NCBI GenBank assembly: GCA_903921785.1 | Contig: CAIXRH010000199.1 | Coordinates: 1 to 64,000, forward strand | Direction of reading: 5' to 3' | DNA from: an uncultured Pseudomonadota bacterium | Lineage (GTDB): Bacteria; Myxococcota_A; UBA796; SXON01 | DNA length: 64,000 nucleotides | Part shown: piece by piece, positions 55,008-63,866 of the stretch | Numbering within the stretch: the first letter of the stretch is position 1 | How the letters are laid out: every line of letters starts with the position of its first letter | Position numbers and translations under genes: made by a program | The notes under the pieces: model-generated | Databases searched by the model: none | Seen by the model: only the letters and a program-made list of their open reading frames with translations | Told to the model about the DNA's origin: nothing

Positions 55008-56452
55008 CCAAACTCCTTGATCATCGCCTCCACCTCCCCCCGGTACCGTGTGGTCCGCACGGCGTCGGCGGCCGTGGGCGTAGGCGCGACGGCGAGCTCG
55101 GTCTTGAGCGCCGCGAGCGCTTCGGGCCGACGGCCCTGCGCGTCGACCGCGCGCGCGAGGCGCTGCACGGCGCGCAGGCGCTGATCACCCCACGCCACGG
55201 CGAGCGCCGCGCGGGCGCGGGCCTCGGACTCCGGGTACTTCTTGGCGTCGGCGAGGAGACGGGCGGCGGCGAAGTCCCAGGTGAACTCCTGTGGATACGC
55301 CGCCTTGAAGGTATCGAGCACCGCGAGGGCACGCGGCAGATCGCCGAGCGTGGCGTAGCCATCCGCGAGGTCGACCACGTAGCCGCGGCTGGCGCCGAGG
55401 TTGTCGGTCACGTGCTGCTGCGTGAGCGTGGTGAAGGCCGCGTGGGCGACGAGGGCGGCCTCGGGAGGCGCTTTCGACGCGTAGGCGTCGAACGCCCAGG
55501 TCGCCAGCTCAGGGGAGAGCTCGGGGATCCGGGGGGCGACGGCCGGGAACAGGTCGGGGAAGGCGCCGAGGAGATCGGGAGCCCAGTCGCCTTGGGGGTC
55601 GTGGGCGAGGAGCCACAGCGCGTCCGTGCGATCCGGCGCGAGGATCAACCGCGCGTAGTGGGCGTCCCGGCCGTCGCCCGCCGCCTTGAGCCAGCGTTGG
55701 GCGAGCTCCTCCCGTTGGGTCTTCGCCAGCCGGAGCGCCACCCGCCCGGCCTCCGCCGGGGCGACGCCGGCCGGCGGCCCGGCCTCCATGGCGGCCAGCG
55801 GCGTGGCCCGCGAGAGCCCGGCGAACCACCCTTCGAGGCTCGCGACGCCCTCGTAGCCGACGTAACGATCCAGCTCCGCGCCCGACGAATCGACGGCCAC
55901 GAGCGTGGGGTATCCGCCCACGTGGTAGCGCGATTTCAGGGGCCAGCTCTCCGGCCGGTCCACGTCCACCGGCACGATCTCCAGGACGCTCCACGGCGCC
56001 ATCCGGCTCGCGTCGTCGAGGAACTCCGCCTTCATCTGGTTGCACGGCGGGCACCACACGGCGCCGAAGTCGTACACCCGCACCGCCGCGCCGATCGACC
56101 CCGCGGCGGCCGCCGGGACGACGAGCGCCGGCGCAGTCAGCGTTGCCTTCCCCGAGCGGCGATTCCCCCCGATCACCGCCTCCATCGCCACCAGACGGCA
56201 GTTGCTCCCCGAGTCCGTACAGAAGGGGAGCTCGGCGCGGAGCGTCCCGCCCTCCTCCGGCACCGGGAGCCGCGCCCACTCGAGCGCGCCGAGGCCGTGG
56301 ACCTCGCTCGGTCCGAGGGACATCGACGCCGGCGCCTCGTCGTTGACGTGCTCCCCCGCGGGGGGCACGATCTGGAGCTGGACTTCCCCCGCCGCCCACC
56401 GGGCGGTCATGGTGGGGTCGGCGGCGAAGGCGTGCGAGAGAAGCAGGAGCAT
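55001..56452 (-). CDS. Exported thioredoxin-like protein with TPR tail
   Basis: A 483-residue periplasmic protein. The signal is only ten residues, MLLLLSHAFA, without a basic residue; an in-frame TAG four codons upstream fixes the start. Residues 12-110 resemble the N-terminal DsbD-like beta domain. The thioredoxin fold (about 115-215) has YDFGAVWCPPCNQMKAEFLD, with the WCPPC redox pair near 133-136, and the cis-Pro loop VGGYPTLVA. The last 250 residues are TPR-like helices. It is probably a thiol-disulfide reductase or disulfide donor. Copy E of the dispersed repeat lies in the 181-base gap upstream. Confidence 0.83.
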   Translation of the reverse strand: MLLLLSHAFAADPTMTARWAAGEVQLQIVPPAGEHVNDEAPASMSLGPSEVHGLGALEWARLPVPEEGGTLRAELPFCTDSGSNCRLVAMEAVIGGNRRSGKATLTAPALVVPAAAAGSIGAAVRVYDFGAVWCPPCNQMKAEFLDDASRMAPWSVLEIVPVDVDRPESWPLKSRYHVGGYPTLVAVDSSGAELDRYVGYEGVASLEGWFAGLSRATPLAAMEAGPPAGVAPAEAGRVALRLAKTQREELAQRWLKAAGDGRDAHYARLILAPDRTDALWLLAHDPQGDWAPDLLGAFPDLFPAVAPRIPELSPELATWAFDAYASKAPPEAALVAHAAFTTLTQQHVTDNLGASRGYVVDLADGYATLGDLPRALAVLDTFKAAYPQEFTWDFAAARLLADAKKYPESEARARAALAVAWGDQRLRAVQRLARAVDAQGRRPEALAALKTELAVAPTPTAADAVRTTRYRGEVEAMIKEFGG

Positions 56453-56515
56453 GGGCGCGGTCTAATGCGGTCGGCCACCGACCGGCCGTGATCCACGCGC
56501 CTCCGGCGAGGACGC

Positions 56516-56612
56516 GGCGCCCCGACGCGCCATTCTCGCCCGCGCGGCTCCTCGACCGCCGCGCCTCCCGCGGGGCAAGCCGGTGGCGCGCCACCAGCCC
56601 TTGACCGCCGTC
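56516..56612 (-). repeat. Dispersed intergenic repeat, copy E
   Basis: Minus strand: GGTCAAGGGCTGGTGGCGCG, CCACCGGCTTGCCCCGCGGG, GGCGCGGCGGTCGAGGAGCC and GGCGAGAATGGCGCGTCGGG. It includes a perfect palindrome GGTGGCGCGCCACC. It is the longest copy, close to copy C. Confidence 0.65.
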
Positions 56613-56625
56613 GTTCGGCCAACCC

Positions 56626-56640
56626 GCGGTCGGCTACCGC
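56626..56640 (-). terminator. Hairpin at the stop of the S1 protein gene
   Basis: GCGGT (56626-56630), loop CGGCT, ACCGC (56636-56640). The TAG stop (complement of 56634-56636) bridges loop and stem. Short but perfect. Confidence 0.25.
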
Positions 56641-57734
56641 TTGACCTTCACGTCCTTGAGCAGGGCCGCGAACACGTCGAACCCGCGAGACCCGCCACCG
56701 CCGCCGCCGCCGCCGCTGCTGCCGCCGGCCGAACCGCCGGAAGACGAGGCGCCACCGGACGAACTTCCCCCGGACGTCTGCTTCATGCTCAGCTCCACGC
56801 GGCGCCGGGCGGCGTCCACTCCGAGCACGCGCACGGTGACGGTGTCCCCTTCCTTCACCACCTCGGAGGGGTGCTTCACCCGACGATCCACGAGGTTGGA
56901 GATGTGGACCATCCCCTCCACGCCGTTGGGGAGCTTCACGAAGGCGCCGAAGTCGCGCACGCCAGAGACGGTGCCTTCGACCACGTCGTTGATCTGGATC
57001 GACCCGTAGCGCTCGGAGGCCATCGCCCGCTCTTCGGCCTCGACCAGGGCGCGGCGGCTGAGCACCACATCGCGGCCGCGGAGGTCGTGAACGAGGAAGG
57101 CCATCGTCTGACCGACGTAGTTGGCGTCTGCCGAGTCGGCGGCGCCGGTGTGGGAGCCGGGGCAGAAGGCCTTGATGCCGTCGGTGAGCAGCACCTGCCA
57201 GCCGCTGTCGGCGGCGGCGGTGATCTTGCCGTTCACCGGCATCTTCGCGGCCATCGCCTCGACGAACATCTCGCGGGCCGCGCCGCCGGAGGGGGTGCGG
57301 GTGACGCGGAGCTCGCCATCCGTGGAGGCGACGAACGCGTCGATCACGTCGCCGAGGCGTACGTCGCCGAGCTCCAGACGATCCACCGCCGCGTCGGATT
57401 TTCCGCCCACGTCGAGGAAGACGTTCTGGGCGCCGATGCTGGTGACGCGACCGCGGAGACGCTGGCCCACGCGGTAGCCGCCGCTCTTGCGACCGCCGGT
57501 GAACTCTTCCATGAGCGCACGCACGTCGGTGGCGTTCATGTCCCCGATGGCGCGGAGCCCCTCGAAATCGGTGGTTTCCCGCGGAGAGGGGGCAGAGACG
57601 GGGGTCGGAGCGGGCGCCGGGCGAGCGGCCACGGGCTCCGGCGTCGGCTCGGCGACCACCACCGGCTCCTCGAGCACACGCTCCTTGGGGCCACCCCGGC
57701 GACGGGGACCGCGAGCGGCGAGAGGATCGGACAT
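56634..57734 (-). CDS. S1 RNA-binding-domain protein
   Basis: A 366-residue protein with a Pro/Ala-rich N-terminal tail (about 1-50) and three S1 domains (about 85-155, 160-235, 243-318). The third is the most canonical: GTVSGVRDFGAFVKLPNGVE, GMVHISNL, then KEGDTVTVRVLGVD and RRRVELSMKQ. The C-terminus is low-complexity Ser/Gly (residues about 320-350, with eight consecutive Gly) ending FDVFAALLKDVKVKR. It resembles shortened ribosomal protein S1-like or YhgF/GsiB-like RNA-binders and may act in translation. AGGAG stands six bases before the ATG. It is head-to-head with the tandem CsrA-like gene across 230 bases. Confidence 0.82.
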   Translation of the reverse strand: MSDPLAARGPRRRGGPKERVLEEPVVVAEPTPEPVAARPAPAPTPVSAPSPRETTDFEGLRAIGDMNATDVRALMEEFTGGRKSGGYRVGQRLRGRVTSIGAQNVFLDVGGKSDAAVDRLELGDVRLGDVIDAFVASTDGELRVTRTPSGGAAREMFVEAMAAKMPVNGKITAAADSGWQVLLTDGIKAFCPGSHTGAADSADANYVGQTMAFLVHDLRGRDVVLSRRALVEAEERAMASERYGSIQINDVVEGTVSGVRDFGAFVKLPNGVEGMVHISNLVDRRVKHPSEVVKEGDTVTVRVLGVDAARRRVELSMKQTSGGSSSGGASSSGGSAGGSSGGGGGGGGSRGFDVFAALLKDVKVKR

Positions 57735-57915
57735 GACGGTCTCCTGAGGGGACGCGCCGCTATCCTGCCACGCGCACGCACGCCCGCCGTGATCGGGTGC
57801 ACGCCCCCGCGACGCTCGCGCCGCCCCACGCCGGCGCCCCGCGCACGTTGTGCCGGGAACTCACGAAGAAGGGAGCCGGCGTCGGCAGCGTGGGTGCGAG
57901 GCGGCACCGCACGAC

Positions 57916-57944
57916 TTGCAGCGCCCGAGCCCTTCGGGTACCGT
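57916..57944 (+). promoter_or_regulatory. Candidate promoter of the tandem CsrA-like gene
   Basis: A TTGCAG -35 (57916-57921), a 17-base spacer and a TACCGT -10 (57939-57944), with a predicted leader of about 14 bases. The -10 is identical to that at 8588. Confidence 0.45.
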
Positions 57945-57964
57945 GACGACGCTCCGGAAACCCG

Positions 57965-58402
57965 ATGTTGTGCCTCACGCTGAAGGACCAAGAGATCGTG
58001 TACGTGGGCACCACCTCCGCCCGGGTGGAGCGTGTGCAGGGGGGCATGGCCGCGGTGGTCCTCCAAATCCCGCCCGGCACGGCGGTGGAGCACCTCAGCG
58101 TCCCCGATGGCGGGATGGGCGTGATTCGCGCCCGCGCGCCCAGGGTGTCGCTCCGTGAAGGCGATGTCCTGGTGGTCGGCGACGCGCGGCTGTTCATCCG
58201 CCGCATCAAGGGCAGCTACCTCCGCGTGGTGTTCGATGTGCCCGAACAGACGGAGGTCCGGCGGGTCAGCGTAGCCGATGCGGGGGAGGCCCCGCGCCCC
58301 GCCGCAGCGCCCGCACCCGCGCGCCAGGCCGAACGCGAACGTCGAGAGAACCCGCTGCCGACCTGGGCCGTGACCGTGCGCCGCGGGTCTGGCCACCGCT
58401 GA
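57965..58402 (+). CDS. Protein with two tandem CsrA-like domains
   Basis: A 145-residue protein. Residues 1-46 (MLCLTLKDQEIVYVG, RVERVQGG, VVLQIPPGTAVEHLSV) and 59-103 (RVSLREGDVLVVGDARLFI, RRIKGSYLRVVFDVPEQTEV, RRVSV) both fit the CsrA/RsmA strand order: an L.L.R..GE start, a V/IGD turn, a strand ending R..G, and an .. P..V.VHR-like end. The RNA-contact Arg of strand 1 (R6 in CsrA) is Leu in both copies; the strand-5 Arg (R44) survives only in copy 2 as R99/R100. An Ala/Pro/Arg tail follows. CsrA normally acts as a dimer, so this could be a single-chain equivalent with altered binding. It lies five bases before queA. Confidence 0.6.
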   Translation: MLCLTLKDQEIVYVGTTSARVERVQGGMAAVVLQIPPGTAVEHLSVPDGGMGVIRARAPRVSLREGDVLVVGDARLFIRRIKGSYLRVVFDVPEQTEVRRVSVADAGEAPRPAAAPAPARQAERERRENPLPTWAVTVRRGSGHR

Positions 58403-58407
58403 ACCGC

Positions 58408-60912
<2,505 letters not shown>

Positions 60913-60913
<1 letters not shown>

Positions 60914-62697
60914 TGGAAGCCGGTCTTGTCACCCGAAGCGCCATCATCGTGGCGTCGTTCCTCGCGGGCATCTGGATGCTCGTCCCCACGTTCTCCCCTC
61001 CTGAGGTGCGGACGGAGCTGGAGCGTGTCTGCAAGCTCGAGGCGATGAAGGAGAAGGATCGCCCGAAGGACGCCGCGCCGGGTGAGTGGTACACCAGCGT
61101 GCTGCCGTGCCACTTCCTCGTGAAGGGGCTCGACCTTCAAGGCGGCGTCGACATGACGATGTACGTCGACGTCGACGAGGCCGTCCGGTCCACGGTGTCC
61201 CGCGAGGCGGCTCACCTCGAGGCCGCCGCCAAGGACAAGAACGTGGACGTGGTCGAGGCGCGCCGTGATCGCCACGAGCCCATCCTCCTCGTGCTCCCCG
61301 GTCCGAACGCCACGACCGAGCAGGTCAAGACCCTGGTTCTGGACCGCCTGGAGCGCTACGAGTTCACCGGAACCCGCGTGGAAGGCGACAAGACCTGGGT
61401 CACCTTCGCGATGAAGGCCGACCGGGTGTCCGACATCCGCAAGCAGTCGGTCGATCAGGCCCGCGAAAAGATTGAGAGCCGCATCAACGGCACGGGCGTG
61501 AAGGAGCCGACCATCACCCGCAAGGGCGAGACCGGGATCGACGTGCAGCTCCCCGGCGAGACCGACATCGAAGCCGCGAAGGAGGCCATCGGCACCACCG
61601 CGCAGCTCGGCTTCCTCCTGGTCGATGAGTCCTTCAAGCTCCAAACGCTCGACGGCCCCGAAGGCTGGCTCGCGAAGGCCAAGGCCGCACTCCCGGAAGC
61701 CGACTACAACAACGACCTGCTGCTCTCCCAGTGGCTGGAGGACCAGAAGGTCCTCACCCCCAAGCAGCGGCTGTACTGGTACTACGACGACGACGCCAAG
61801 CCGCCCGTCCGCAAGGCGGAGTACCTCGTGCTCCACAGCGAGATCCTCCTCACCGGCGAGGATGTCGACACCGCGGGCATCGAACGCGACTCGCAGAAGG
61901 GCGGCTGGGACACCTCGTTGGACTTCAAGCCGCGCGGCGCGAAGATCTTCGGCGACATCACCGGCGCCAACATCCACAAGCGCCTCGCCATCGTGCTCGA
62001 TGACCACATTCGCTCCGCGCCGCAGATCAACGGCCGGATCGACGGGCGCTGCAGCATCAGCGGCAGCGGCCTCAAGAGCGACGACGTCGAACAACGCGAA
62101 GCGAGCACCCTGGCGCTCGTGCTGCGCACCGGCGCCCTCCCCGCACCGGTCAACATCGGTGAGGTCCGGACCATCGGCCCGCAGCTCGGCGACAAGGCGA
62201 TCCGCGAGGGCACCTTCGCGTCGTTGCTCGGCTGCGTCCTGGTGTTCCTGTTCGCGGGCATCTACTACCGGGTGAGCGGGATCCTGGCGGACATCTCCCT
62301 GGCGCTCAACGGTCTGCTCTGCGTGGCCCTCCTGGTGTGGCTCGGCGCCACCCTCACCCTGCCCGGCATCTGCGGCATCGCGTTGACCATCGGCATGGCG
62401 GTAGACGCGAACATCATCATCTTCGAGCGTATCCGAGAGGAGCTTCGAGGAGGAAAGTCCGCGCGTACGGCCATCGAGACCGGGTTCGACCGCGCCTCGG
62501 TGGCGGTCATCGATTCCAACATCTGCACCCTGCTCGCCGGCGTGGTGCTCTTCAGCTACGGCACCGGCCCCCTCCGGGGCTTCGCCGTCACGCTGCTCAT
62601 CGGCATCTTCACCACCCTCTTCACCGGCGTGTTCGTCTCCCGCACGTTGATGGAGGCGGTCTTCGGTCGCCGTTCGACCGCGAACGTGAGCATCTGA
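60913..62697 (+). CDS. secD: Protein translocase subunit SecD
   Basis: A 594-residue RND-type membrane protein. An N-terminal helix (about 8-25) is followed by a long periplasmic domain beginning with VKGLDLQGGVDMTMYVD, and five C-terminal helices (about 430-590) with IREGTFASLLGC and GMAVDANIIIFERIREELRG. The first periplasmic part is normal; residues around 220-310 include an acidic and aromatic stretch. It uses the proton-motive force to pull exported proteins into the periplasm together with SecF. Confidence 0.96.
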
Positions 62698-63866
62698 TGT
62701 TCGAGATCGTCCCGAAGACCTTCTGGTACGACTTCGTGGCCCGCCGCCACTTCTGGGCGGTGGTGTCGTTCGCGATGTCCGGGCTCGGCCTGTTCTTGTT
62801 CCTCTTCATCGGGCCTCGGTGGTCGATCGACTTCACCGGCGGCACCGAAGTGGACATGCACTTCGAGAAGACCACCGAGATCGCTGAGGTGCGCGCGGCG
62901 CTCGAGGCCGTGGGCGTGGCCGAGGACGCGGTGCAGCAGGTGGGCGACCCGGGAACCTCCGAGTTCTCGGTGCGCATCCAGGGAAACACCGCCGCCAAGC
63001 AGGAAGATGTCGACGCCGTGAAGGCCGCGTTGATCAAGGCCCACGGCGAGACCTGGATCGACGACTTCCGGGTCGAGACCGAGGTCGGCGCCCGCATCGC
63101 CGTCACCTACATCGGGGACCAGCTCAGCAAGGACGTGCTCGAGGCCGACGTGGCCTCGGTGAAGGGCTGCCTTGTGACGCTCGGCGGCGGGCAGGACGCC
63201 AACCTCGTGTACATCACCCTCCCCGGGGTGAGCGAAGAGATCAAGGATGCGCTCAACACGGCGCTCCCCGATCGCGGAATGATCGTCGACCGCGCCGATT
63301 CGGTCGGTCCGAAGGTCGGCGGTTCGTTGCGCACCGCGGGGGTCACGTCGCTGGTGGTCTCGGCGCTCCTCCACCTCGTCTACGTGGCCATCCGGTTCGA
63401 CTTCACGTTCGCGCCGGGCGCGATCATCTGCCTGTTCCACGACGTGCTCATCACGGTGGGCATCCTCGTGGCGATGCGGCAGGAGTTCGGGCTCTCCACG
63501 GTCAGCGCGCTGCTCACCCTCTCGGGGTACTCGCTCAACGACACCATCGTCGTCTACGACCGCATCCGCGAGAACCTGGAGCGGTACAAGCGGAAGAACT
63601 TCGGAGACCTGATCAACGACGCGATCAACCAGACGTTGTCGCGCACGATCATGACCTCCGGGGCCACGTCCATGGCGATGATCCCGTTCCTCTTCATCGG
63701 GGGAGCGGTGCTCCAGCAGTTCGCGCTGGTGATGCTCATCGGCATCGTGGTCGGCACATACTCGTCGGTGTACGTCGCCGCGCCGCTCACGATGATCCTC
63801 CGCGACTACGAACCGCAGCTGCGAGCCCTGTTCGCCGGCAAGAAGGCCTCGCCGAAGACCCCCTGA
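62697..63866 (+). CDS. secF: Protein translocase subunit SecF
   Basis: A 389-residue partner of SecD. It has an N-terminal helix, the periplasmic segment with WSIDFTGGTEVDMHF, and C-terminal helices with IRFDFTFAPGAIICLFHDV, GYSLNDTIVVYDRIRENLER and RTIMTSGATSMAMIPFLF. The start overlaps the secD stop by one base (TGATG). The C-terminal extension of about 15 residues is basic. Downstream is the HU/IHF gene. Confidence 0.96.
   Translation: MFEIVPKTFWYDFVARRHFWAVVSFAMSGLGLFLFLFIGPRWSIDFTGGTEVDMHFEKTTEIAEVRAALEAVGVAEDAVQQVGDPGTSEFSVRIQGNTAAKQEDVDAVKAALIKAHGETWIDDFRVETEVGARIAVTYIGDQLSKDVLEADVASVKGCLVTLGGGQDANLVYITLPGVSEEIKDALNTALPDRGMIVDRADSVGPKVGGSLRTAGVTSLVVSALLHLVYVAIRFDFTFAPGAIICLFHDVLITVGILVAMRQEFGLSTVSALLTLSGYSLNDTIVVYDRIRENLERYKRKNFGDLINDAINQTLSRTIMTSGATSMAMIPFLFIGGAVLQQFALVMLIGIVVGTYSSVYVAAPLTMILRDYEPQLRALFAGKKASPKTP

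Follow-up and report, generated by a model that had tools for sequence, protein, structure and literature searches.

A gene directly upstream of queA in the window, the 64,000-nucleotide stretch of DNA that was analysed, encodes a protein with two successive CsrA-like domains. No other doubled member was found in the queA-linked branch of CsrA proteins to which it belongs. That the gene arose when a unit of about 57 codons was duplicated within it is supported by the comparison of the two copies with each other and with their relatives. There is an about even chance that the chain forms a pseudo-dimer by itself, with one GGA site complete and the other degraded.

Two CsrA-like domains in one chain

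The gene and its neighbours are listed in Table 1; the source genome is 7.48 Mb in size and 96% complete. The Pfam CsrA family, PF02599, matches residues 62–105 of the whole protein alone, with 16.2 bits and an E-value of 0.01 (the gathering score is 27 bits). When the halves were submitted separately to Pfam, neither yielded a CsrA match, so that the half-by-half PF02599 search suggested in an earlier note on this DNA nearly fails as a test. NCBIfam, including the CsrA equivalog NF002469 (TIGR00202), gave no match to the window protein.

Table 1. Features of the csr locus in the window and the evidence for each
Feature	Position	Strand	Evidence or details
S1-domain protein, head-to-head with csr	56634..57734	-	Pfam S1, 93.8 bits; synteny
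Tandem CsrA-like protein, 145 aa + stop	57965..58402	+	Intact ORF, ATG start; branch profile matches twice
CsrA-like copy 1, residues 1–47	57965..58105	+	Branch HMM, 16.1 bits; shuffle test against copy 2
Key residues of copy 1			L2, L4, L6, K7; H43 at the Arg44 position, S45 at the Glu46 position
Inter-copy linker, residues 48–58	58106..58138	+	Gap separating both profile matches
CsrA-like copy 2, residues 59–104	58139..58276	+	Pfam CsrA, 16.2 bits, sub-threshold; branch HMM, 40.7 bits
Key residues of copy 2			P59, V61, L63, R64; V98; R100 at the Arg44 position; S102
Low-complexity linker and Arg-containing C-terminal tail, ending TWAVTVRRGSGHR	58277..58399	+	Similar basic tails in many single-domain orthologues
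queA, start 5 bases past the csr stop codon	58408..59430	+	Pfam Queuosine_synth, 347 bits; synteny
tgt	59442..60590	+	Pfam TGT, 500 bits
yajC, secD, secF	60590..63866	+	Pfam YajC and SecD/SecF families

A profile built from 11 single-domain orthologues matches the window protein twice, at residues 1–47 (16.1 bits) and 61–104 (40.7 bits). The E-values of these matches are 4.6e-7 and 9.3e-15 on a single-target scale (Z=1), and the i-E-values are 9e-4 and 2e-11 when the complete ORF set from the first loci is searched. Copies 1 and 2 align over 47 residues without a gap and with a BLOSUM62 score of 75; none of 5000 shuffles reached this value (mean 20, maximum 45). The tandem CsrA architecture proposed earlier is thus borne out by the branch profile and by the repeat itself, and the idea that the first half looks like CsrA by chance is rejected on the same profile and shuffles. 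Copy 1 scores 28–71 against ten single-domain orthologues and 32 against E. coli CsrA. In a tree of 48 domains, built on only 48 usable columns, the two copies, both of them long branches, are joined with a support of 90/84 and lie on the branch side. The profile matches, the gap-free repeat, the shuffles, the closeness of the copies to each other and the tree together argue for the internal duplication. Homology to CsrA is established through the intermediate profile of the orthologues, which matches both copies; since the protein is below the Pfam cut-off but homologous to orthologues that match Pfam, it was filed as a diverged tandem CsrA derivative.

A duplication introduced by assembly is not favoured, as the copies differ widely in sequence and are located inside a 155-kb contig. 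The GC content at the third codon position, taken from codon-position GC, is 0.94 in copy 1, 0.85 in copy 2 and 0.91 in queA, which is coding-like in both copies.

The single-domain branch and its locus

When relatives were searched with the window protein, 13 other genomes gave matches, mostly aligning to its second half. Apart from the weakest match, L013, which is away from this locus, they read as short proteins of one domain, for example MLVLTQKEGEILQVGKDVRIFIKRIKGNWVRLCIDAPKEVELKRIP. A search of genome contigs with the window protein as the query found no relatives; a single orthologue as the query matched eight named Myxococcota/Deltaproteobacteria records, including JAKLKD010000250 (Myxococcota bacterium). 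No relative was found in phage records. The class search placed the branch in 23 of the 71 genomes of the Myxococcota class, so the orthologues that had been expected in Myxococcota do exist. With one exception (G002), the branch profile matched once per positive class genome; at that sensitivity, most of them appear to have no CsrA relative besides the branch member. The second CsrA of G002 (L081:177-314 on contig C87, MLVLSRKKNEAIRINNDI...) keeps Arg6 and Glu46 and could be a paralogue or contamination.

All 15 single-domain orthologues that were scanned match Pfam CsrA (E<=1), among them L003 with 48.2 bits, above the cut-off of 27, and the orthologue branch matches solved CsrA/RsmA/RsmE chains with E-values down to 2.6e-13. 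Against the NCBIfam CsrA equivalog, L003 scores 50.6, with a cut-off of 73; judging by this one member, proteins of the branch may go unnamed in annotation. The dN/dS of single-domain csr genes in six pairs is 0.14–0.40, as compared with 0.10–0.17 for queA, and is higher for csr in five of the six. Single-domain csr of the branch is under purifying selection, somewhat weaker than that on queA. A low-complexity linker followed by an Arg-rich C-terminal motif recurs in the single-domain tails (VTTRRFRPGPR, VTTRRRSR, RSRMGRR, MARRR), e.g. at loci L024, L025, L016, L017, L026 and L061; the corresponding tail of the window protein is TWAVTVRRGSGHR. Members of the branch resemble the window protein in this basic tail, in the loss of Arg6 and, nearly all of them, in the divergent arrangement of the S1 gene and csr-queA-tgt. 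They differ in having one domain per chain, in 22 other genomes, and the scanned members match Pfam CsrA far better.

The Pfam identification of the S1 protein, QueA, TGT, YajC, SecD and SecF agrees with the earlier description of csr as standing head-to-head with an S1 gene on the divergent strand and as leading queA-tgt-yajC-secDF. The positions of S1, Csr, queA and tgt, tabulated across genomes, show the same divergent order in about twenty of them, and the adjacency of csr to queA is kept across nine genera of the class; this conserved synteny indicates that the csr genes are orthologous. The fetched stretch of G025 stops short of S1, those of G068 and G069 contain no S1 match, and in G064 csr is located elsewhere, not beside queA. 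The G064 member (L065:4001-4306) lacks Arg6; downstream of it, as judged by translation, are an aspartate kinase-like ORF and then a diaminopimelate decarboxylase-like ORF. Two Csr domains at the S1–queA locus are found in the window genome only.

In the family of 22 genomes, queA is present in all 22 and csr in 14, being absent in eight. In the csr-less genomes S1 and queA are mostly still adjacent, with little intergenic space, and G008 keeps a tail remnant. Loci with csr missing between S1 and queA include L019, L020, L023, L030, L033 and L036, and L023 retains a stretch with the tail motif (SAVTTRRFRPGPC). An Rfam scan of positions 56000–61000 found no RNA family, and a promoter and terminator scan of 57600–58500 found neither element. 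At two other loci, L021 and L022, TTGCGA-N17-TAAGCT was recognised by eye directly before the GTG start of csr, suggesting a very short mRNA leader or none.

As csr stays linked to S1, queA and tgt, a role in translation-related control is a reasonable starting guess but nothing firmer, and a conserved position does not in itself make a target; on linkage only, the S1 and queA-tgt transcripts are the first candidate targets. In other bacteria, FliW is a protein antagonist of CsrA. Regulation of the FliW type was rejected, as FliW was found in none of the 71 class genomes; flagellin-type genes are present in 50 of the 71, including the window genome.

RNA-contact residues and the arrangement of the chain

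Each RNA site of CsrA is made of strands 1 and 5 from opposite subunits, with Leu4 and Arg44 being critical, and dimers with two sites bridge two sites on one mRNA (PMC7652899). The GG of the target is close to Leu2/Leu4 from one subunit and to Val42 from its partner; in RsmE, the Arg6–Glu46 salt bridge was reported to be indispensable (PMC6692469). Replacement of the Arg44 equivalent in RsmN lowered the affinity more than 1000-fold (PMC3791407).

These positions were compared in 49 domains. The branch set includes both window copies and the G064 member; 24 comparison domains came from the phylum search, one of which, L080, is on a contig with 33% GC and is probably foreign. Of the domains that can be read at position 6, all 24 comparison CsrAs keep Arg6, and the 22 from the branch lack it without exception. 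Glu46 is mostly replaced in the branch (by P, S, A or K) and is kept in genus g6 and G001. Both window copies lack the pair, having L6/S45 and L63/S102, respectively. Since all readable members of the branch lack Arg6 and most lack Glu46, this is a trait of the branch and by itself no argument for a non-GGA RNA. The non-GGA target that the earlier note derived from the loss of Arg6 is therefore unsupported, the whole branch being without Arg6 and mostly keeping Leu2, Leu4 and Arg44, and the loss of the strand-1 Arg is no peculiarity of the fused protein. The statement that neither copy has this Arg is correct for position 6, but position 7 is still basic in both (K7, R64). The strand-5 Arg is indeed confined to copy 2, where R100 corresponds to Arg44; copy 1 has H43. 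Arg44 is also replaced in G001, G015, G017 and G019. Three single-domain members from genus g6 (L029, L026 and L027) have Met6, His44 and Glu46 together, unlike the rest of the branch.

Because CsrA sites combine strand 1 of one subunit with strand 5 of the other, two different copies in one chain would give two unlike sites. The evidence supports a single-domain gene as ancestral at the locus and the duplication of its unit of about 57 codons in the lineage of the window genome. According to the pseudo-dimer model, the copies would, most likely, fold on each other, replacing the usual homodimer, a geometry that we infer from the residues. Residue mapping assigns copy 1 strand 1 (L2, L4, K7) and copy 2 strand 5 (V98, R100) to site A, which would keep the GGA-contact set and lack nothing but the branch trait, and copy 2 strand 1 (P59, V61, R64) and copy 1 strand 5 (V41, H43) to putative site B, where Leu2 and Arg44 would be lost. 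Each chain would bind one GGA-type RNA site and would be unable to link two sites of the same mRNA, which homodimeric CsrA can do. A stricter version, a single-chain ‘heterodimeric’ CsrA with exactly one working GGA site, the other site having been released from RNA, within a branch that lacks the Arg6–Glu46 bridge, is a serious possibility, if short of an even one. The g6 relatives G015, G017 and G019 have His44 as their sole version with dN/dS of 0.22–0.29; H43 is therefore no proof of a dead site, and site B may not be dead.

AlphaFold2 models of the window protein are of low confidence both with a nine-row alignment (mean pLDDT 46.8) and with the single sequence (47.7). The weakness of the models is explained by the behaviour of MAFFT, which always aligned the orthologues to copy 2 and left copy 1 uncovered. 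In the low-confidence single-sequence model, the strands of copy 1 (residues 2–7, 10–14, 19–24, 28–34 and 43–45) follow the CsrA order, though at a confidence too low for this to carry weight; the two models disagree on the position of strand 1 of copy 2. A Foldseek search of the PDB with both low-confidence models returned no significant match, and no CsrA was among the 50 matches listed.

The copies might instead pair between two chains, each with its counterpart in the other, in a four-domain assembly with two Arg44-bearing and two His-bearing sites per dimer. Such pairing would be in keeping with the known CsrA structures, which are strand-swapped dimers, and with the better preservation of copy 2 (40.7 vs 16.1 bits). 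It is nevertheless unlikely, since a linker of 11–13 residues should reach a partner in the same chain, by an estimate from strand lengths made without coordinates, which favours an intramolecular partner; in addition, a site formed by two copies 2 would have a poorer strand 1, with P59 in place of Leu2. An RNA-binding pseudo-dimer is also to be set against a module for a protein partner, in which copy 1 or both copies dock a protein and RNA binding is gone. The altered residues of site B would suit that role, and CsrA folds elsewhere do bind proteins, CesT and FliW (PMC5864733, PMC7829508); with the GGA-contact set of site A (R100, V98, L2, L4) still present, and with FliW, a known partner, missing from the class genomes, this reading is very improbable.

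The absence of csr from eight of the 22 family genomes, taken with its fast evolution, makes relaxed constraint possible. The queA-linked CsrA may be in the course of being lost in the family, with the tandem as a drifting remnant of little function. Besides the absences, the S1–queA space that is too small in most of those genomes, the tail remnant of G008, the replacement of Arg44 in four genomes and the higher dN/dS of csr than of queA in five of six pairs would fit such erosion. The intact window ORF with coding-type GC3 in both copies, the dN/dS of single-domain relatives, well below 1, and the retention of the hydrophobic strand pattern and of the basic tail speak against it, and erosion is considered an improbable account of the gene.

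Comparison with known systems

In the search of 379 phylum genomes, two CsrA matches in one frame turned up in a single further genome, G146. Its ORF (L080:1137-1376, contig C41) resembles the window protein in carrying both matches in a 122-aa open frame and differs in that the second match lacks strand 1, Arg6 is kept and the contig has 33% GC. The GC content and the missing strand indicate that this ORF is probably foreign (contamination) and tandem-like only. Titles and abstract openings retrieved in a literature search mentioned neither a tandem CsrA nor csrA with queA, a scope that makes this weak evidence.

CsrA/RsmA/RsmE proteins (PF02599) are homodimeric translational regulators with a short single-domain chain. 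The window protein is like them in that both copies match the CsrA-branch profile and copy 2 keeps the equivalents of Arg44 and Val42. It differs in its two-domain chain of 145 residues, in the loss of Arg6 and Glu46 in both copies and in that copy 1 has His where CsrA has Arg44; it also lacks the C-terminal helix motif (EEIY) and has an extra linker and a basic tail. The branch as a whole, being without the Arg6–Glu46 bridge and yet under purifying selection, offers a direct test of the role of that bridge.

RsmN/RsmF of Pseudomonas aeruginosa likewise goes back to a duplication and is a CsrA relative of rearranged structure (PMC3791407), but it contains an inserted helix, and its chains, of one domain each, still pair as a homodimer. 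If the pseudo-dimer model is correct, a CsrA homodimer can turn into one asymmetric chain in nature. Engineered dimers of E. coli CsrA in which one polypeptide carries R44A (Mercante 2009, as outlined in PMC7652899) have, according to that outline, one RNA surface intact and the other broken, as is proposed here; they were made by mutation, whereas the window protein would owe this state to a natural duplication. The window protein would then be the natural counterpart of a laboratory state that was built to ask whether repression needs both RNA sites.
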